Assembly (NCBI GenBank): GCA_017526745.1
Contig: JAFXQX010000029.1
Coordinates: 248,001-312,000, forward strand
Direction: 5' to 3'
DNA length: 64,000 nt
From: Lachnospiraceae bacterium
GTDB lineage: Bacteria > Bacillota > Clostridia > Lachnospirales > Lachnospiraceae
This document shows, piece after piece, positions 7,864-17,727 of this stretch (the first letter of the stretch is position 1; each line of letters opens with the position of its first letter). The notes beneath the pieces are model-generated. The model ran no database searches, was not told the origin of the DNA, and saw only the letters and a program-made list of their open reading frames with translations. A program made the translations under genes and the position numbers.

Positions 7864-9885
7864 TTAACTTTTATAGTATCCGGATGATCTTACGAACATA
7901 TCGCGAAGTACTGTCTGGTTTCGAAGATCCTTAACATAGTTTGTTCGTCTTGCCACGTAATCGTTCAGCTTGGTCATATATTCATCGGCGGCCAGCTCCC
8001 TGTTTGCCACCATCGTAAGACCCTTTTCCCAACTGGCCGTAAGCTTGGGATCCAGAAGCGCTTTTATAGATACATCAACGACATCATATACCATCTCGCC
8101 GAGAAGTTCCGGGGTTATCACCTGGGTCTTTTTGTTAAACTTCAGGTATTTTATCTTGCCGAGCTTTTCAAGAATGCCGGCACGCGTGGCACTTGTACCG
8201 ATGCCGCTGCCCTTTATCTGTGCCCGCAGTTCTTCATCCTCGATGAGCTGTCCCGCATTCTCCATGGCAAGCATCATCGTTCCGGAAGTATAGCGCTTTG
8301 GAGGGCTTGTCTGGCCTTCTTTAATGACAAAATCATTTGCCTCGAACGTGCTTCCGGACTTCAGTTTCTTGATCTTTTCAAGAAATGATGCATCAACTGC
8401 CGTATCTTCCTCTTCGGATGCCTCATCCTTTTCATCTTCATCCTTAGAGGCTGTCTTATCCTTCCAATATGACGGGCGGGATACCGCAAGAAATCCTTCC
8501 TGATCGAGCACCTTGAATCCCGCGAAAAAGCTCTCGCCGCCAATATCTGCGGTAAGCTTTACATTCTGATAAACGGCAGCCGGATAGAATACAGATACAA
8601 ATCTTCTTACGATCAGTTCATAGATCTTTGCGGATCTGTCGGATAATGACCTTAAGGAATCAAGTCCCTGTCCCGTAGGTATTATCGCATAATGGTCCTC
8701 GATGAGCTTGTCGTTGACATACCTTGTCTTTTCGATACCCTCATAAGCTTTGGTTTCAATGATGTTCTTTGCTATATCACTTACCGGAGCATATCCCGTA
8801 AGGCCTTTTATGTTTTTGACGATCTCTTTTGCAACGGCCGTCGATAATACCCTCGCGTTCGTCCTAGGGTATGTTGTTAGCTTTTTTTCATACAGCTCCT
8901 GTGCAACATTGAGCGTATCTGCGGGGCTTATCTTGAAAAACTTTGAGCAGTCGGCTGAAAGCTCGGTAAGATTATATAAGAAGGGGGGATTTTTCTTCTC
9001 TTTCTTCTTCTCGATCTTCTGTATGGTCCCTTTGCCGGATGACCTTTCCTTGAGATCTTCCATAAGGCTTACAGCATCTTCTTTATCCAGAAAGCCGTTA
9101 TCCTTGTAAAGCTTGGGAGACATATAATACCGGCTGTTCTCAACAGCTTTCCAATTGGCATCAAATGGTACCTGATCGGCCGTACACGAAGCGATAAGGC
9201 GGTAGAAGGGAGTCTTTACAAAAGCCCTGATCTCGCGCTCGCGGCGCACCACCATATCGAGAACGCATGTCATGACGCGTCCGACAGCCACGGTACAATG
9301 CTTTTCTCCGAGAAACTGTGCCATCGAATCACCGTATTTAAGAGTCAGCGCCCTGGAAAAATTGATGCCCATCAGGTAATCTTCCTTGGCACGCAGATAT
9401 GCGGAATCGGCTATCGCATCATATTCCGAGATAGGTTTGGCATCTTTTATCCCGTTTTTTATCGCCTCTTCCGTCTGTGAGTCGATCCACACACGTCGTT
9501 CGTTCTTGCCGGATACCCCGGCCTCGAAAGCAACCAGCCTGTATATGTATTCTCCCTCGCGTCCCGAGTCGGTACATACATAAATGGTCTCAACATCATC
9601 CCTCGTTAGTATCTTTTTTACAGTCGCAAACTGTTTTGCCGATGCTTTAATGACCTCATATTTATACTCGGAAGGCAAAAAAGGAAGTGTAGCAAAGCTC
9701 CACTTCTTGTATTTGATATCATATGCATCGGGATAGCTCATCGTTACCAGATGTCCGACGCACCAGGTTATGATGCAGTTCTGGGATTCAAGATACCCGT
9801 CATATGATCTTGTATTTAGTTTTAAAGCCTCGGCGAACTGTTTGGCCACACTGGGCTTTTCGGTGATAAATACACTCTTGTTCAT
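7864..9885 (-). CDS. topB: DNA topoisomerase III
   Basis: 673-residue type IA topoisomerase. The N-terminal Toprim domain opens MNKSVFITEKPSVAK and carries the acidic signature CTDSGREGEYI; the active-site tyrosine is in TTYPRTNARVLS; the GTSATRAGILEKL region is typical of the C-terminal part of the catalytic core. There is no C-terminal zinc-finger extension, as expected for TopB rather than TopA. It starts 22 bases after the amino-acid ABC ATPase and could be read from that operon. Family role: decatenation of DNA intermediates. The ribosome site is weak. Confidence 0.94.
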   Translation of the reverse strand: MNKSVFITEKPSVAKQFAEALKLNTRSYDGYLESQNCIITWCVGHLVTMSYPDAYDIKYKKWSFATLPFLPSEYKYEVIKASAKQFATVKKILTRDDVETIYVCTDSGREGEYIYRLVAFEAGVSGKNERRVWIDSQTEEAIKNGIKDAKPISEYDAIADSAYLRAKEDYLMGINFSRALTLKYGDSMAQFLGEKHCTVAVGRVMTCVLDMVVRREREIRAFVKTPFYRLIASCTADQVPFDANWKAVENSRYYMSPKLYKDNGFLDKEDAVSLMEDLKERSSGKGTIQKIEKKKEKKNPPFLYNLTELSADCSKFFKISPADTLNVAQELYEKKLTTYPRTNARVLSTAVAKEIVKNIKGLTGYAPVSDIAKNIIETKAYEGIEKTRYVNDKLIEDHYAIIPTGQGLDSLRSLSDRSAKIYELIVRRFVSVFYPAAVYQNVKLTADIGGESFFAGFKVLDQEGFLAVSRPSYWKDKTASKDEDEKDEASEEEDTAVDASFLEKIKKLKSGSTFEANDFVIKEGQTSPPKRYTSGTMMLAMENAGQLIEDEELRAQIKGSGIGTSATRAGILEKLGKIKYLKFNKKTQVITPELLGEMVYDVVDVSIKALLDPKLTASWEKGLTMVANRELAADEYMTKLNDYVARRTNYVKDLRNQTVLRDMFVRSSGYYKS

Positions 9886-9907
9886 CTTACTGTAGGACGC
9901 GCGGATA

Positions 9908-10669
9908 TTATATCATCTTGTCAAGAAATGCTTTAAGACGTTCGTTCTTAGGATTCTCGAAGAAGTTTACGGGATCGTTCTCTTCGAGTATCTGCCTGTC
10001 GGCCATGAACAGTATGCGATTTGCAACTTCTCTTGCAAATGCCATCTCATGAGTCACGACGATCATGGTCATCTTATCATTTGCAAGTTCACGCATTACT
10101 TCCAGGACTTCCCCGACCATCTCCGGATCGAGAGCGCTTGTGGGCTCATCGAAGAGCATGACATCGGGCTCCATGCAAAGTGACCTTGCTATGGCGATCC
10201 TTTGCTTCTGCCCGCCTGAAAGCTGGTTGGGATAGGAACGGGCACGGTCGGCAAGCTTTACTCTTTCGAGAAGCTTCATCGCACGCTCCTCAGCCTGGTC
10301 TTTCGTAAGACCCTGGAGCTTTACGGGACCGATGGTCAGATTGTCCATAACGCACAGATGCGGGAACAGATTGAATTGCTGAAATACCATTCCCATCTTC
10401 TGTCTGTGCCTGTCGATATCAACCTTATTATCAAGTATGTTCACGCCTTCAAAGAAGATCTGGCCGCCTGTTGCATCCTCAAGCCGGTTCAGGCAGCGAA
10501 GGAAGGTGCTTTTACCTGCGCCCGAAGGGCCGACGATAAATGCAACATCGCCTTCATAGAAGTCGACGCTGATATCTTCAAGTACTTCTTCCATATTGCC
10601 CTGGGCATCCTTGAAAGACTTGCACAGGTGCTTAACTTCAATGAGAGGTTTCCTTTGTTCAGTGGTCAC
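9908..10669 (-). CDS. Polar amino-acid ABC transporter ATPase
   Basis: 253-residue nucleotide-binding subunit: Walker [11 protein letters not shown]-loop [10 protein letters not shown], signature LSGGQKQR, Walker [14 protein letters not shown], switch histidine in VVTHEM. This is the GlnQ/HisP pattern for polar amino-acid uptake. Start choice: GTG at 10669 ([15 protein letters not shown]) overlaps the permease stop by 11 bases with AAAGGA 12 bases upstream. A TTG at 10711 would add 14 residues inside the permease gene and is less likely. Operon order is binding protein, permease, ATPase. Confidence 0.93.
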
Positions 10670-11345
10670 TGTTCTTGAGATTCCTTTCGAGTTTCTTGAC
10701 AAGACTGTCAAAGATCATAACGAAAAACAGATAAATGGCCGCCGCCATCAGAAGCGGCATGAATGCTGAATATGTCTGGCTCCTTATGATATCGGCTCCG
10801 CGGGTCAGGTCGTTCATCGCGATATACCCGGCTACGGATGTTTCCTTCAGAAGCACTATCATCTCATTTCCGAGTGCGGGAAGAACATTCTTGATGGCCT
10901 GCGGGAGTATGAAATACAGCATGGTCTGGGTATATGAAAATCCCAGGCTCGCACCTGCTTCCGACTGTCCCTTGTCTATAGACATGATACCGGCACGGAT
11001 TATCTCCGCCACATATGCTGCGGAATTAAGTCCGAATGCGATAAAGGCAACGATGATCTTGGGTACATTGACCGATGCGAATATGACAAAATACACGATC
11101 AAAAGCTGCAGGACCATGGGAGTTCCACGGATGACCGTGATATACAGCTGGCAAAATGCATTTGCGATCTTCCATTTCCCTGTTTTGTCATGGGTAGTCC
11201 TGACATAGGCGAGCAAAAAACCAAGTAAAATACCCACCACGACCGCAACGATCGTGATGAGTAATGTATTTACCAGTCCGGACAGGAGATACATATACCT
11301 GTCGTCTTTTATGAAATTAAGATAAAAGTCTTCCCTGATCCTCAT
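10659..11345 (-). CDS. Polar amino-acid ABC transporter permease
   Basis: 228-residue HisM/GlnP-type permease with about five hydrophobic segments, starting near [19 protein letters not shown]. The cytoplasmic coupling loop [20 protein letters not shown] is the EAA motif that contacts the ATPase. It follows the binding-protein gene by 6 bases without a clear ribosome site, which fits translational coupling. Substrate cannot be read from sequence; the family imports glutamine, histidine, arginine, cystine and similar amino acids. Confidence 0.93.
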
Positions 11346-11351
11346 TTATGT

Positions 11352-12083
11352 TTATTCGGCTTTGATATATTTGTTGATGATCTCGTCGATCTTTCCGGAA
11401 TCCTGAAGTTTCTTAAGAGAAGCATTGATGTCGTTAAGAAGCTGCTCGTTGTCCTTTGCGACCCCGATCGCATACTCTTCGACCGTGAATTCCTCATCGA
11501 TCATCTTAAGATCCGCATTTTCGCCAACAAATACCTTACCGGGCTCACGGTCCACGATAACGGCATCGATCTTGCCCTGTGTAAGAGCATTGATAGCTTC
11601 GAAATACTTGGAATAACGTTCGATCGTTGCTTCCTCGATATCCTCTGCGTATATATCTCCTGTCGTACCGATCTGAACACCTATCGTCTTGCCCTTAAGA
11701 TCGTCGGGAGAAGCAACTGTTGAATCGTTCTTTACAACGATGACCTGCGCTGCTTCCGTATAAGGATCCGAGAAGTTGATGTTCTGTTTACGGTCTTCGG
11801 TAACAGTCATGCCGGCCATTGCTATATCAGCCTTTCCGGACTGAACTGCTGCGATTATCGAATCAAATGCCATATCCTCTATAACGAGTTCTTTACCGAG
11901 ATCATCAGCGATAAGCTTTGCGATCTCGGGATCGATCCCTGTTATCTCGCTGCCTTCAACATATTCGTAAGGCGGAAAAGCGGCATTGGTAGCCATGACA
12001 AGCTTATTCGAAGAGCCCGATCCGCAGGCGCTAAGTACAAAAGCCGCACATACAGCCAAAACTGTTATCATTGATCTTTTCAT
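11352..12083 (-). CDS. Amino-acid ABC transporter substrate-binding lipoprotein
   Basis: 243-residue SBP_bac_3-family protein. N-terminal lipoprotein signal with lipobox LSAC, so it is predicted to be lipid-anchored outside the membrane. AFPPYEYVEG, ITGIDPEIAKLIADDLGK and MTVTEDRKQNINFSDPY are family landmarks. Two ATGs lie close together; the second (12083) has GGAGGA at proper distance while the first is pressed against it, so I chose the second. A promoter lies about 40 bases upstream. First gene of an operon with permease and ATPase, possibly extending into topB. Confidence 0.95.
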   Translation of the reverse strand: MKRSMITVLAVCAAFVLSACGSGSSNKLVMATNAAFPPYEYVEGSEITGIDPEIAKLIADDLGKELVIEDMAFDSIIAAVQSGKADIAMAGMTVTEDRKQNINFSDPYTEAAQVIVVKNDSTVASPDDLKGKTIGVQIGTTGDIYAEDIEEATIERYSKYFEAINALTQGKIDAVIVDREPGKVFVGENADLKMIDEEFTVEEYAIGVAKDNEQLLNDINASLKKLQDSGKIDEIINKYIKAE

Positions 12084-12121
12084 AATCATTCCTCCACATC
12101 TGAATCAAAAAATACCAATTA

Positions 12122-12150
12122 AATCTATCATTTTTGTCTTAAAGTGTCAA
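12122..12150 (-). promoter_or_regulatory. Promoter of the amino-acid ABC transporter operon
   Basis: Minus strand: -35 TTGACA (12145-12150), 17-base spacer, -10 TAGATT (12122-12127, four of six consensus bases). The -35 overlaps the stop codon of the upstream ATPase-like gene. This gives the transporter its own transcription start. Confidence 0.7.
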
Positions 12151-13517
12151 CGAAGCTTTTGTCCGTGCCCGTCGATCAGTTTTAAACCCGGCGTGACCGT
12201 TTCCGTTATCGTAAGTTTCTGGTCAAAACCTCCCGCCGCAAACAGCCATATATTGTCACAGTTGATCTTGTTCTTCCTGACGGCCTCGGCAGCCTTTTCA
12301 TACTCCCGATAGCTCATATGCAAAGAGGAGTACGAACATTTGCATGCGATTGCGCTTCCCCCGGCCGCGATGATCACAAAATCTATCGCATCCGTTTTAT
12401 CATGATACTCTTCTATCGATGAAACCGTAAAATTCAGCTTTCTGTTATCGGCCAGCCAGCGTATATGTTCCATGCACAGGAGCGGATAAGTCTCATCGAT
12501 AAATGATGCTAGTTCGTTTTCTATAAACCTTCTGTAAAACCTGTCAGGGCCAAGAAGCAGAAGCGATGACATATGAGGCAGTACAAACCTGTAGTAAAAC
12601 TTCGTAAGGGGCTCTTTGATACGATACATGCCCTTCTGTGTGTTTTCGCTCTTTCCGACCCCGGCACTAGTCACCTTTTCAACAATTCCGCTTTTTATCA
12701 GCACCTTAAGATATACCGACAGTTTTGCTGAATCGGTGAGCGTCATTTTATGCAGATCGGCAAGTTTAACGGGACCTTTCGCCATATTGAGAAGAATCGT
12801 GTTATATAACATGGGCTCTCTTATATCGCGAGGCAGCATCCCGAAAGGACATCTGTTATCATCCGCCCATGCCGAAAGCTGTCTCATTATGACATCACGT
12901 GTTCTCGACTCCGGGGTGATATCGTTATAATATGCACTCTTTCCGCCGAGAAACGAGTATATTCCGATGACTTCCGATAAGGGCAGACCTTCAAATGCCT
13001 GATAAAACTGTGTTGCACTATAATCTTTTAATTTAATAACGCCTGATATTTCAGATGATCTGTTGCCGATGATCTTTATCATGTCATTCTCTACCCACTC
13101 GATATCATCGGAAACGAGGAGCAGCATAGCCTTGCCGGTATTGCCGTGCCTGGACAGAAGGCTTGAGAGGAAGTTGATGAATGTCCTCTCCTCCTTCATC
13201 AGATACTGAAAATCATCGAAGATAACTACCTTCTTCTTTCCCGAGTCTTCATTGATGTAAGAAGACAGCAGCTTATCATAATCATCATTTGTAAATATCG
13301 GTAATTTTGTCTGATCATGGAATTCCTGTATGAAGATCCTGCGCTGCATCTCTATCGAAAATGCACCGGCAGTATAATACAGGCAGTCCTTGTCTTTGGA
13401 AAAAACTGATACGATCTCACCAAGCCCCTGGGCTCTTTGACCGTAAAGAATCGCTATATCACTCGAATTCCTGGCAAACATATCCTGCAGGAAAAAAAGA
13501 ACGCTTTTCTGATACAT
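12147..13517 (-). CDS. DUF234-type AAA ATPase homologue with degenerate P-loop
   Basis: 456-residue protein laid out like the archaeal-type ATPase/DUF234 family: N-terminal ATPase domain, central winged helix (LADLHKMTLTDSAKLSVYLK) and C-terminal DUF234/PD-(D/E)XK-like domain. The Walker A position reads YGQRAQGLGEI (residues 25-35) where active relatives have YGRRRxGKT, so the lysine and threonine are missing. Walker B reads VVIFDDFQYL (Asp101-Asp102), with D for the catalytic E. The C-terminal domain keeps an Asp in AIDFV but has ACK where nuclease-like relatives have ECK. ATP hydrolysis therefore looks lost. It starts one base after the GGDEF/EAL gene, suggesting a joint role. Confidence 0.75.
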   Translation of the reverse strand: MYQKSVLFFLQDMFARNSSDIAILYGQRAQGLGEIVSVFSKDKDCLYYTAGAFSIEMQRRIFIQEFHDQTKLPIFTNDDYDKLLSSYINEDSGKKKVVIFDDFQYLMKEERTFINFLSSLLSRHGNTGKAMLLLVSDDIEWVENDMIKIIGNRSSEISGVIKLKDYSATQFYQAFEGLPLSEVIGIYSFLGGKSAYYNDITPESRTRDVIMRQLSAWADDNRCPFGMLPRDIREPMLYNTILLNMAKGPVKLADLHKMTLTDSAKLSVYLKVLIKSGIVEKVTSAGVGKSENTQKGMYRIKEPLTKFYYRFVLPHMSSLLLLGPDRFYRRFIENELASFIDETYPLLCMEHIRWLADNRKLNFTVSSIEEYHDKTDAIDFVIIAAGGSAIACKCSYSSLHMSYREYEKAAEAVRKNKINCDNIWLFAAGGFDQKLTITETVTPGLKLIDGHGQKLR

Positions 13518-13518
13518 A

Positions 13519-15261
13519 TCACGGAATCTGTCTGATCAGTATCTTCTCAAACTCAACCTTGGAGACAGGCTTTCCGAGAAGGAATCCCTGGACGATGTCA
13601 ATATTTCGCTCACGAAGATAATTGAACTGTTCTTTCGTCTCAACACCTTCGGCAACTGTTTCAAACCCGAGCTTTTGCGCCATTTTGATAACGCTCTCAT
13701 AAATGATGCTTGAGCTGTCATCCTTAAGTGCGGTCTCAATGAATGTCCTGTCGATCTTGAGCGTATCGATAGGCAACTGCTTAAGATATGAAAGCGATGA
13801 ATATCCCGTGCCAAAATCATCAAGACTGACCCTCATGCCAAGTCCGCGAAGAGTCTTGATTTTATCTATAACATCCTCAAAATTATTGATGAATACAGAC
13901 TCGGTTATCTCTATCTCGACAGATTCGGGGTTGACTCCGTACAGTCCGGCAGTATGAGACAGCGTCTCAACAAAACTGTCCTTTTCCAGCTGAAGTGCGG
14001 AAATATTGATCGACAGTATGATAGGGATATGATATTTACTGCGCCAGTCAGCATATGTTTTTAAAGCTTCTTTTAAAACGAAATTGCCGATAGGGACGAT
14101 CGCTCCGTTCTTTTCGGCTATAGGAATAAACTCGCTCGGAGAAGTGATGAAGCCTTCACCTTCGGGATCCGGCCAGCGAAGAAGTGCCTCGGCGCCGCGC
14201 AGTTTTCCGTCCGAGGCAAAATACTGCGGCTGGTAATACAGCTGGAAGCCCTCTGTCTCAATAGCCTCTTTGAGCTGTTTTTCGACCGAAACATTTCTGA
14301 TGAATTTGTTCAGTATTTCTATCTCAAAATACTGGATACCGTTTTTGCCGCGCTCTTTTGCCTTGTACAGAACTATCTCGGCATTCTTGATGACTTCGAG
14401 AGCGGTCCTTCCCGCATCGGGATATTCTGCAACTCCGCAGGATACCGTGAACATGAGCTCCGACTTGTTGGTAAGCACAAACGGATGACGCAGCCTTTCA
14501 AGGATCTTCCTGTAGATAACATCGCAGCTTCTGGTCCCGCACGGATTGTAGACCGCGACAACGAACACGTCGCTTCCGAACCTTCCGACATTTACATCTT
14601 CGGAATCAAAACCTTTCAGATACTGTCCGAACTCCTGAACAAGTTCGTCTCCGAAGAGCAGTCCTATGGAGTCATTGATCTTCTTGAAATCGTCGATATC
14701 TACGAACATTATCTCGACGCTGACTTCCTCGCTCTCGGCTCTCTCACACATATCACGGAACTTCCTGACAAAATAGTTCCTGTTGTATACGCCGGTAAGG
14801 GAGTCATAGAATGCGAGATATTCAAGCTCTTCGGAGTTCATCTTGATCTTCGTGATATCTTTGATCGAGATGATCTTCTCGACAGGCTTATGGTCTTCGT
14901 CGTATGTTACGTTTGCAAAGCAGGACAGCCAGTATCTCTTGCTGCGGCTTCTGACCTCTATGCTGTCAGTCTCAAGTCCTTCACGCTCGATCTCAAGCAT
15001 ATGGATCCTGAACTTATCCTGATCCTCATCAAGCAGAAGATTTAACATATATGACTCATCGTAAGGATGATTGGCGATCTTCTCTCCCACCATGTCGTCC
15101 CACGGGCCGACAAGTTCAACCTTTGCGGGCTGTGATTTATAATCAAAATACATGAAAAGCGTACCGGAGCATTCAGCAATGTGCCGGTACATCTTTTCAC
15201 TTCCAAGCAGTCTTTCGTTTAATGCAGTGAGCAGATCGATCTGATACTTTAAATCTTCCAA
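13519..15261 (-). CDS. PAS-GGDEF-EAL protein, degenerate GGDEF with intact EAL
   Basis: 580-residue cyclic-di-GMP protein. An N-terminal PAS-like sensor (about residues 20-140) is followed by a GGDEF domain whose active-site loop is GSDVF (229-233), so cyclase activity should be absent. The EAL domain (about 325-575) has the residues expected of an active phosphodiesterase: EALLRW (Glu358), Asn419, EITES, DDFGTGYSSL (481-490), Lys502 and Glu538 in AEGVET. No membrane segment is seen, so it is probably cytosolic. Start is TTG at 15261 with a weak AAAGAG upstream; the true start is uncertain by a few codons. It sits between asd (19-base gap) and the ATPase homologue (1-base gap). Confidence 0.9.
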   Translation of the reverse strand: MEDLKYQIDLLTALNERLLGSEKMYRHIAECSGTLFMYFDYKSQPAKVELVGPWDDMVGEKIANHPYDESYMLNLLLDEDQDKFRIHMLEIEREGLETDSIEVRSRSKRYWLSCFANVTYDEDHKPVEKIISIKDITKIKMNSEELEYLAFYDSLTGVYNRNYFVRKFRDMCERAESEEVSVEIMFVDIDDFKKINDSIGLLFGDELVQEFGQYLKGFDSEDVNVGRFGSDVFVVAVYNPCGTRSCDVIYRKILERLRHPFVLTNKSELMFTVSCGVAEYPDAGRTALEVIKNAEIVLYKAKERGKNGIQYFEIEILNKFIRNVSVEKQLKEAIETEGFQLYYQPQYFASDGKLRGAEALLRWPDPEGEGFITSPSEFIPIAEKNGAIVPIGNFVLKEALKTYADWRSKYHIPIILSINISALQLEKDSFVETLSHTAGLYGVNPESVEIEITESVFINNFEDVIDKIKTLRGLGMRVSLDDFGTGYSSLSYLKQLPIDTLKIDRTFIETALKDDSSSIIYESVIKMAQKLGFETVAEGVETKEQFNYLRERNIDIVQGFLLGKPVSKVEFEKILIRQIP

Positions 15262-15280
15262 AACAAAAATCTCTTTATCT

Positions 15281-16366
15281 TTACTTCTTTGTTATATAGC
15301 CTTTTTTATACAGGTATTCCGCGCAAAGTACCGCACCGCCTGCGGCTCCTCTTAACGTATTGTGGGACAGGCCGACGAACTTGTAGTCATATACGGTATC
15401 TTCGCGAAGACGGCCGATCGAGATACCCATACCCTTTTCAAAATCGACATCAAGCTTGACCTGGGGCCTGTTATCTTCCTCCATATACTGTATGAACTGC
15501 TTCGGTGCCGACGGAAGATCAAGTTCCTGCGGTTCACCCTTAAAGTTTACAAGCTTTTCGATAAGCTGCTCTTTGGTGGGTTTTTTCCTAAACTTTACAA
15601 ATACGGATGCCGTATGTCCGTCAAGGACGGGGATCCTTATGCACTGGCAGGTGATGACAGGCTCTGCTGCCTTAACGATCTGACCGTTTTCGATCTTACC
15701 GAATATGCGAAGCGGCTCCTGCTCTGATTTTTCCTCTTCTCCTCCTATATAGGGGATAACATTTTCCACCATCTCGGGCCAGTCCTTGAATGTCTTGCCG
15801 GCTCCCGAGATAGCCTGATATGTTGATGCCACGACCTCATAAGGCTCAAACTCGCGCCATGCATAAAGTGCAGGCGTATAGCTTTGGATCGAGCAGTTGG
15901 GCTTGACCGCGATAAATCCGCGCTTTGTACCGAGCCTCTTTCTCTGATCATCGATAACAGCAGCATGGGCTCCGTTAAGTTCCGGGATCATCATCGGAAC
16001 ATCAGGTGTCCAGCGATGTGCGCTGTTATTGGAAACAACCGGGGTTTCCGCCTTTGCGTAAGCCTCCTCAATGGCACGGATCTCATCCTTTGTCATGTCA
16101 ACGGCCGAGAATACGAAATCAACCTTTGAGGCTATAGCATCCACCTCATTTACGTTCATGACAGTGATATCCTTGACACACTCCGGCATGGGTGTCTTCA
16201 TCTTCCACCTGTCGCCGACAGCGTCCTTGTATGATTTTCCGGCACTTCTGGGACTTGCCGCTATAACCTTCACTTCAAACCACGGATGGTCTGCAAGAAG
16301 CGATATGAAACGCTGTCCTACCATCCCGGTACCGCCTAAGATACCTACCTGTAATCTCTCATCCAT
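15281..16366 (-). CDS. asd: Aspartate-semialdehyde dehydrogenase
   Basis: 361-residue enzyme reducing aspartyl phosphate to the semialdehyde for lysine, threonine, methionine and diaminopimelate. NADP-binding motif GILGGTGMVGQRF is at residues 8-20, the catalytic cysteine is Cys158 in KPNCSIQSY, and the histidine is in VLDGHTASVF. Length and the PNCSIQ sequence resemble the archaeal/fungal-type subfamily; that assignment is from memory and is tentative. Start ATG has GGAGG 7 bases upstream and lies 22 bases inside the end of argH, so the two are tightly coupled. Confidence 0.94.
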   Translation of the reverse strand: MDERLQVGILGGTGMVGQRFISLLADHPWFEVKVIAASPRSAGKSYKDAVGDRWKMKTPMPECVKDITVMNVNEVDAIASKVDFVFSAVDMTKDEIRAIEEAYAKAETPVVSNNSAHRWTPDVPMMIPELNGAHAAVIDDQRKRLGTKRGFIAVKPNCSIQSYTPALYAWREFEPYEVVASTYQAISGAGKTFKDWPEMVENVIPYIGGEEEKSEQEPLRIFGKIENGQIVKAAEPVITCQCIRIPVLDGHTASVFVKFRKKPTKEQLIEKLVNFKGEPQELDLPSAPKQFIQYMEEDNRPQVKLDVDFEKGMGISIGRLREDTVYDYKFVGLSHNTLRGAAGGAVLCAEYLYKKGYITKK

Positions 16367-17727
16367 TGTTCTGCCTCCTTGATATACTCCTCCATTGCCT
16401 TACTCGACGGAGCGCCCTTTGTGATACGGTTGTCGACACATGCCTTAAGGCTGATCGCATCATACACATCCTCATCAAAATATCCGCTTACAGCCTTAAG
16501 TTCGGCCAATGTGCACTCCTCGATCGATTTATGGTTTGTGTCACAGTATATCACAACCTGACCGATTATACCATGCGCATCTCTGAACGGAACACCCTTG
16601 CCGACAAGGTAATCTGCCGCATCCGTTGCATTCGTGAAGCCTTTTGCCGCAGAGTCCTTCATGACATCCTTGTTAAACGTCATTGTAGAGATCATTCCGG
16701 CAAAGAGTTCAAGGCATGATGCTGCGGTATCCATGGCATCAAACGCAGCCTCCTTGTCCTCCTGCATGTCCTTGTTATATGCAAGCGGAAGTGCCTTCAT
16801 GGTCGTAAGAAGGGCCATAAGATCTCCGTATACCCTTCCGGTCTTGCCGCGGGTAAGCTCTGCTATGTCGGGATTTTTCTTCTGGGGCATGATCGACGAT
16901 CCCGTCGCAAATGAATCATCTATATTGACAAACCTGTATTCATTACTGTTCCAGATGATAAGCTCCTCCGAAAACCTGGAAAGATGCATCATAACTATAG
17001 AAAGTGCGCCAAGATATTCGAGCAGATAGTCCCTGTCCGATACGGCATCCATCGAATTCGCACAAGGGGCCTTAAATCCGAGTTCTTCTGCAACCATGTC
17101 ACGGTCAAGGGGAAAAGTCGTTCCGGCAAGTGCACCGGCCCCGAGCGGACAGTAATTCATCCTCTCATAAATATCCGAAAGCCTTCCGAAATCGCGGCGA
17201 AACATTTCAAAATACGCCGCAAGATGATGGGAAAGGGTGACCGGCTGTGCCTTCTGAAGATGAGTGAATCCGGGCATGACGGTATCGGTATTGTCTTTTA
17301 TCAGTTGAAGCAGTTCAGCAAGAAGTGCGATGATGTTTTCCTTTACAGCCGTGATATTGTCTCTTGTATAAAGGCGCATATCAAGAGCCACCTGGTCGTT
17401 CCGGCTCCTTCCGGTATGCAATTTCTTGCCCGCATCTCCTATCCTGTCGATAAGGTTTGCCTCAACAAAACTGTGCACGTCCTCATATTCGGAAGAGACT
17501 GTAAGCTTTCCGGCCTTAACGTCATTTAATATATCGTCAAGTCCGGCGATTATGCTGCTGCATTCGTCTTCCGTTATTATCCCGCATTTTGCAAGCATCG
17601 TAACATGAGCCTTTGAACCTTTAATGTCGACATCAAGAAGCCTTTTGTCGAAGCTTATGGATGCATTAAAATCATACACCTTCCGGTCGGTTTCTTTTGT
17701 AAATCTTCCGCCCCACAACTGAGCCAT
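16345..17727 (-). CDS. argH: Argininosuccinate lyase
   Basis: 460-residue last enzyme of arginine synthesis, splitting argininosuccinate into arginine and fumarate. Landmarks: MAQLWGGRF at the start, HTGRSRNDQVALDMRLY, TVMPGFTHLQKAQPVTLSHH, and the fumarase-superfamily signature GSSIMPQKKNPD with the catalytic serine. Ribosome site TGAGGT lies before the ATG. No argG is visible nearby. It lies downstream of tRNA-Thr, separated by a hairpin; I see no convincing separate promoter in that gap. Its end overlaps asd by 22 bases. Confidence 0.96.
   Translation of the reverse strand: MAQLWGGRFTKETDRKVYDFNASISFDKRLLDVDIKGSKAHVTMLAKCGIITEDECSSIIAGLDDILNDVKAGKLTVSSEYEDVHSFVEANLIDRIGDAGKKLHTGRSRNDQVALDMRLYTRDNITAVKENIIALLAELLQLIKDNTDTVMPGFTHLQKAQPVTLSHHLAAYFEMFRRDFGRLSDIYERMNYCPLGAGALAGTTFPLDRDMVAEELGFKAPCANSMDAVSDRDYLLEYLGALSIVMMHLSRFSEELIIWNSNEYRFVNIDDSFATGSSIMPQKKNPDIAELTRGKTGRVYGDLMALLTTMKALPLAYNKDMQEDKEAAFDAMDTAASCLELFAGMISTMTFNKDVMKDSAAKGFTNATDAADYLVGKGVPFRDAHGIIGQVVIYCDTNHKSIEECTLAELKAVSGYFDEDVYDAISLKACVDNRITKGAPSSKAMEEYIKEAEQWMRDYR

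Follow-up and report, generated by a model that had tools for sequence, protein, structure and literature searches.

A predicted cyclic di-GMP phosphodiesterase and a DUF234-type pseudo-ATPase encoded side by side between asd and topB in Lachnospiraceae

The window analyzed here is a 64,000-nucleotide stretch of a Lachnospiraceae bacterium genome (assembly GCA_017526745.1, contig JAFXQX010000029.1, positions 248,001 to 312,000), in which a gene for a GGDEF-EAL protein, a predicted cyclic di-GMP (c-di-GMP) phosphodiesterase, directly precedes one for a DUF234-type ATPase-like protein that has lost its P-loop. That the two genes recur together across many gut relatives suggests a long-standing regulatory arrangement and speaks against recent decay. 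Gene order, the states of the motifs, selection, and phylogenetic depth are directly established. It is quite possible, though short of probable, that the pair constitutes an input-output module in which a GTP-gated phosphodiesterase feeds a pseudo-ATPase winged-helix regulator.

The two genes had been singled out in a first-pass annotation of the window, the observations of which are confirmed and the interpretation of which is partly supported. The pair itself, its coordinates, strand, and one-base spacing were given correctly, the junction reading TGA-T-ATG with a single intervening base. Although the annotation spoke of the two as fused, they are separate genes. The pair and its parts are as follows:

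13519..15261, minus strand: GGDEF-EAL protein, 580 amino acids (aa), TTG start, predicted c-di-GMP phosphodiesterase (EAL 1.3e-69, GGDEF 3.2e-33)
14842..15261, minus strand: N-terminal conserved helix-like stretch and weak PAS-like region, aa 1-140 (PAS_9 0.049 in the window, below the cut-off)
14341..14814, minus strand: GGDEF domain, aa 150-307, predicted non-catalytic
14563..14577, minus strand: GSDVF instead of GGDEF, aa 229-233
13567..14280, minus strand: EAL domain, aa 328-565, eight catalytic residues intact
12147..13517, minus strand: DUF234-type pseudo-ATPase, 456 aa (Pfam DUF234 6e-9, ATPase_2 0.0026)
13419..13442, minus strand: P-loop remnant GQRAQGLG, aa 26-33, Lys and Thr replaced
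13209..13229, minus strand: Walker B remnant VVIFDDF, aa 97-103, Glu replaced by Asp
12612..12812, minus strand: winged-helix region, aa 236-302 (HTH_5 in 47 of 68 members)
12318..12596, minus strand: DUF234 region, aa 308-400, nuclease-like
12333..12341, minus strand: K-C-S, aa 393-395, where the nuclease E-C-K would stand (aligned with L247-L251, relatives from other families of the order)

Homologues of the ATPase-like protein were compared at 121 loci, comprising the window, 34 other members of its genus, and 86 members of the family, picked by similarity to the window protein. A full-length EAL gene is next upstream in 57 of these loci, bearing out linkage of the two genes elsewhere.

The TTG start of the GGDEF-EAL protein is backed by a conserved N-terminus. 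As the annotation had read them, the GGDEF loop is GSDVF, with V232 in place of the catalytic Glu, and the EAL residues are complete, with all eight present (E358, N419, E451, D481, D482, K502, E538, and Q558; ENEDDKEQ). The window protein also retains D188, N196, D205, D231, and K302, positions that we equate with the GTP contacts of PleD, and these are conserved in 50, 52, 53, 54, and 54, respectively, of the 57 linked EAL proteins. Within the same set, 3 proteins keep the GGDEF Glu and 54 have lost it, whereas 54 have a complete set of EAL residues. The retained contact residues would fit the annotation's prediction of a phosphodiesterase with a possibly GTP-sensing GGDEF domain. In an additional set of 15 EAL proteins, which includes some without a linked ATPase-like gene, the EAL residues are complete without exception, and three of the 15 (L215-L217) keep the GGDEF Glu. 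By sequence, the closest protein of solved structure is 4rnh, labeled 'Motility regulator', which we take to be MorA.

Degeneracy of the GGDEF motif was considered as a special feature of the window protein and ruled out, given that a degenerate GGDEF combined with an intact EAL domain is usual in the same genome. From 11 matches to EAL proteins in this genome, 8 had their loci examined, and seven of these eight, the window's included, carry a degenerate motif; one of the seven (EGAEY) retains the Glu.

Two sets of relatives depart further from the intact enzyme. In three linked proteins (L092, L094, and L100), the EAL site is damaged, reading ENEDNKEQ twice and DSLNGKDE once, although the frames are open; the neighboring ATPase-like proteins have lost the P-loop. 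In their sister group (L086, L095, and L101), the EAL protein is reduced to its N-terminal 136-160 residues. These remnants stop at the end of the PAS-like region, directly precede the ATPase-like gene, and remain in open frame, with ratios of nonsynonymous to synonymous substitution rates (dN/dS) of 0.24-0.52 at 40-47% identity.

The ATPase-like protein scores above the Pfam cut-off for DUF234 (36.7 vs 22.5 bits) and below that for ATPase_2 (18.1 vs 33.2 bits), and a scan of 68 subfamily members matched DUF234 in all 68 and ATPase_2 in 67 at E values up to 0.01. The P-loop was correctly described as lost: its position reads G26-QRAQ-G31-L32-G33, departing from the Walker A pattern GxxxxGK[TS] at L32 and G33. 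Loss of the nuclease residues was also seen rightly but in the wrong register, since the annotation set ACK against ECK and the aligned triplet is K393-C394-S395, in which K393 and S395 stand in for both catalytic residues of the nuclease-type E-x-K motif. We presume that DUF234 adopts the PD-(D/E)XK fold. In 38 P-loop-intact, asd-linked relatives, conservation is highest in the winged helix (0.64 vs 0.41), suggesting that the ability to bind DNA has been retained. Comparison of the protein alone with solved structures gave no convincing match (best E 0.26), and the family profile weakly matched the Cdc6 homologue 2qby (1.6e-4).

The pair forms part of a conserved order, argH-asd-[EAL]-[ATPase]-topB. 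The minus-strand run in the window comprises argH, asd, the EAL gene, the ATPase-like gene, a three-gene ATP-binding cassette (ABC) transporter, and topB, the product of which we take to be topoisomerase III. The neighbors of the pair are:

16345..17727, minus strand: argH, argininosuccinate lyase, first gene of the run
15281..16366, minus strand: asd, aspartate-semialdehyde dehydrogenase, upstream neighbor
9908..12089, minus strand: ABC transporter of three genes (family-3 solute-binding protein, permease, ATPase), separating the ATPase-like gene from topB
7864..9885, minus strand: topB-like topoisomerase gene, conserved downstream neighbor (Topoisom_bac 9.3e-93)

Upstream of the ATPase-like gene, asd is found at a distance of no more than 3 kb in 96 of the 121 loci; topB follows the ATPase-like gene directly in 85, and where the EAL and ATPase-like genes are linked, the gap between them has a median of 12 bases. 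A gene for a transporter binding protein takes this place in 20 of the other loci (19 of the 35 genus loci, plus L112), and topB beyond such a gene was seen in the window only. Searching from the EAL side, 397 family genomes yielded 48 matches above 700 bits, 42 of which have an ATPase-like gene directly downstream, with adjacency judged by coordinates and, for 13 of the 48, by fetched DNA; the 700-bit line was fixed after inspection of the list, and the wider count is 42 of 51. In the stretches fetched around three matches at 667-681 bits (G339, G125, and G014), neither asd nor an ATPase-like gene was present, and at G006 (629 bits, behind asd) the stretch runs off the contig.

We also noted that the asd-topB stretch (7864-17727 in the window) carries differing genes in differing genera. 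At L017 and L031, the places of L108 and L122, other DUF234-type ATPases with an intact P-loop are found directly behind a gene called argS-like by eye. Additionally, a promoter-like site (TTGACA, 17-nucleotide spacing, TAGATT with a preceding TG) lies at 12122-12150 on the minus strand, where the ATPase-like gene ends, and might drive the transporter genes; such sites are not enriched in the region (19 vs a mean of 17.0 in shuffles).

The losses in the ATPase-like protein are shared well beyond the window. A homologue is present in 35 of 37 genomes of the genus, and the window groups with 12 further species at 47-74% identity in a clade supported by a Shimodaira-Hasegawa-like approximate likelihood ratio of 100 (SH-aLRT, quick tree). 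None of the 13 members retains the P-loop Lys or Thr: position 32 holds Leu in 11 members and Val in the other 2, and position 33 is Thr in none. The EAL gene is next upstream in all 12 other species, within 15 bases in 11 of them and at 318 bases in L072. That P-loop loss and EAL adjacency are both common to these 12 species indicates more than chance. Over the whole set, the P-loop is intact at 56 loci and lost at 65, and many relatives outside the window clade retain GKT together with a DE Walker B. On a tree of the ATPase-like proteins built without the P-loop columns, parsimony requires at least 12 changes of P-loop state, a count that is blind to whether the P-loop was lost or gained. 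None of the 121 loci retains the nuclease Glu, and 8 have the nuclease Lys. Relatives from other families of the order (L247-L251) keep both GKT and E-C-K, and no asd, EAL, or topB gene was found in the stretches fetched around them; a paralogue in the window's own genome retains GKT and E-M-K. The simplest sequence of events is loss of the nuclease first, followed by repeated losses of the P-loop. When 295 genomes from the order were searched, the best match outside the family reached 411 bits, compared to up to 665 within it, so that in this sample the subfamily seems restricted to the family.

Judged by its pattern of substitution, the ATPase-like protein is maintained and quickly evolving under purifying selection. 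Open frames of 445-484 aa are present in 65 of 65 P-loop-less members. Comparing the window with L068, we obtained dN/dS values of 0.081 for the ATPase-like gene, 0.014 for the EAL gene, and 0.026 for asd, and two other clade pairs gave 0.062 and 0.117 for the ATPase-like gene, all of these values being rough, with dS near saturation; two more pairs, in which dS was saturated, gave no value. Across 12 clade members, the mean distance is 0.713 for the ATPase-like protein vs 0.136 for the EAL protein, so that the former evolves about five times faster. The annotation had allowed for recent decay, should close relatives carry intact motifs. With an intact P-loop in none of the 13 clade members and with purifying selection on the gene, recent decay is rejected. 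A slower decay, in which the gene persists in the window clade as a functionless remnant, is highly improbable. This fivefold difference in rate would fit it, as would a branch of 1.41 changes per column leading to the clade and a below-average conservation of the P-loop region there (0.49 vs 0.54), but no member of the 13 has a broken frame, dN/dS stays at 0.06-0.12, and 80 positions are invariant across all 13.

As we envisage the input-output module, it would sit in an amino-acid-gene operon. Its input would be the c-di-GMP phosphodiesterase, in which the EAL domain would probably be gated by a non-cyclizing GGDEF domain with retained GTP binding, the PAS-like N-terminus being a possible further sensor. 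Its output would be a pseudo-ATPase derived from an ATPase_2/DUF234 protein, which kept the winged helix after losing the nuclease and, later in the window clade, the P-loop, and whose probable role is ATP-independent binding to DNA or to a partner protein. The phosphodiesterase may tune this regulator by direct contact, by analogy with PdeR-MlrA of E. coli, perhaps through its N-terminal region, or else by way of local c-di-GMP. The enzymatic activities, the GTP gating, the DNA binding, and the contact are all properties that we infer. EAL genes are rarely found without the ATPase-like gene, whereas ATPase-like genes often lack an EAL neighbor, an asymmetry that would follow if the EAL protein were an accessory input and the ATPase-like protein the output.

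A number of results weigh against such a module. The ATPase-like gene occurs without the EAL gene in 38 asd-linked loci, and 6 of the 48 EAL genes lack the ATPase-like gene (L210-L215), topB being next in five of these six; strict dependence of the EAL gene on the ATPase-like gene is rejected on account of these six loci. Mapped on the ATPase tree, the EAL gene switches between present and absent no fewer than 15 times, and a sign test of low power, using 9 pairs on well-supported branches, detected no association of P-loop state with EAL presence (median p 1). With asd held constant, co-evolution of the two proteins did not reach significance in 52 pairs (partial r 0.07, matched or exceeded in 63 of 500 shuffles) or in 30 pairs outside the genus (partial r 0.16, 76 of 500). 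Within the window clade, a partial r of 0.45 was obtained with asd as the sole control (1 of 500 shuffles), but the transporter gene hisJ co-varies with the ATPase-like gene as strongly as the EAL gene does (0.46 vs 0.49; hisM, 0.19), and specific EAL-ATPase co-evolution was therefore rejected. The two genes also relax in opposite directions between clades, with dN of 0.016 for EAL and 0.183 for ATPase between the window and L068, and of 0.143 and 0.021, respectively, between L103 and L104. Synteny alone proves little, since in 20 control asd loci lacking both genes, topB was within the fetched 5 kb in 13, with other genes between in 11 and directly adjacent in 2. On the side of the proteins, conservation of the winged helix is only average in the window clade (0.56 vs 0.54), and the PAS assignment is weak (with E values up to 0.1, PAS_9 in 10 and PAS_3 in 9 of 40 members; E 0.16 for the best Protein Data Bank profile match). 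An AlphaFold2 model, made from the window protein and L039 only, had a predicted local distance difference test score (pLDDT) of 45.5 and was not used for fold searches. The roughness of the dN/dS values counts on this side as well.

Many of these results are equally what would be seen if the two proteins were simply neighbors, co-transcribed and acting separately within a vertically inherited asd-topB interval with genus-variable cargo. The uncoupled losses, the lack of specific co-evolution, the opposite changes in rate, and the presence of topB within about 5 kb of asd in the 13 of 20 control loci are all in line with this explanation, and we judge it exactly as likely as the module, that is, a serious possibility that falls somewhat short of even. 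It is opposed by the 42 of 48 EAL genes of this type that directly precede the ATPase-like gene in many genera, by the rarity of EAL genes without it, and by the N-terminal EAL remnants that stand immediately before it. Very unlikely, on the other hand, is an obligate sensory complex of two degenerate enzymes, close to the sensory or regulatory complex that the annotation had proposed. Its tight linkage is conserved, and at L092, L094, and L100 both proteins look catalytically compromised while both frames persist, but either gene occurs without the other, the EAL domain in the window is intact, and the uncoupled losses, together with co-evolution no stronger than that of hisJ, leave an obligate complex unsupported. 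The description as two degenerate enzymes is overstated, given that the EAL enzyme looks complete, that a degenerate GGDEF on an intact EAL is usual in this genome, and that the nuclease Glu is missing subfamily-wide.

GTP-gated GGDEF-EAL enzymes and trigger phosphodiesterases are already established. The former include Caulobacter CC3396, RbdA and RmcA of P. aeruginosa, and Shewanella PdeB, the GGDEF domain of which also binds a partner protein (PMC9061725). The window protein resembles these in having a non-cyclizing GGDEF, most GTP contacts, and an intact EAL, and differs in that its gene lies behind argH-asd and beside a pseudo-ATPase. In the trigger phosphodiesterases PdeR and PdeL of E. 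coli, an active EAL enzyme controls a DNA-binding partner by contact, or DNA directly (PMC5052742). A comparable trigger role is proposed for the window protein, for which gene linkage is what has been seen; unlike in those systems, the partner would be an ATPase-derived winged-helix protein rather than a MerR-like factor, and contact with it is conjectural. No description of the EAL-ATPase pair was found in a literature search of open-licence papers.

The ATPase-like protein shares its domain order with ATPase_2/DUF234 proteins (PF01637, PF03008) and with PDC-S27, a candidate defence family of PADLOC, and unlike its relatives L247-L251, it lacks the P-loop and nuclease residues and has a fixed chromosomal place. 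The PDC-S27 model matches the window protein at 1.1e-18 over aa 10-399 and was matched by 68 of 68 members scanned (alignment A3), PADLOC's own cut-off not having been applied. PDC families are candidates, mostly without experimental test (PMC12988326), and PDC-S27 is tallied among defence systems in two recent surveys (PMC12988326, PMC13356809). Since the model is matched by all 68 of these syntenic, often catalytically dead proteins, Lachnospiraceae-rich defence counts may be inflated, raising the question of whether PDC-S27 counts from gut and rumen include a vertically inherited, often dead regulator.

It is conceivable, though unlikely, that a PDC-S27-type defence ATPase-nuclease was domesticated in Lachnospiraceae between asd and topB, was stripped of its nuclease, repeatedly lost its ATP switch, and had its output set by a c-di-GMP phosphodiesterase through the N-terminal region of the latter. 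If true, this would be a c-di-GMP-controlled pseudo-ATPase regulator of an undescribed kind. The locus provides a natural series, running from an EAL gene with a P-loop-intact partner, through loss of the P-loop, damage to the EAL site, and reduction of the EAL protein to its N-terminus, to either gene alone, and this series is a direct test of which portions of a c-di-GMP enzyme have importance apart from catalysis.

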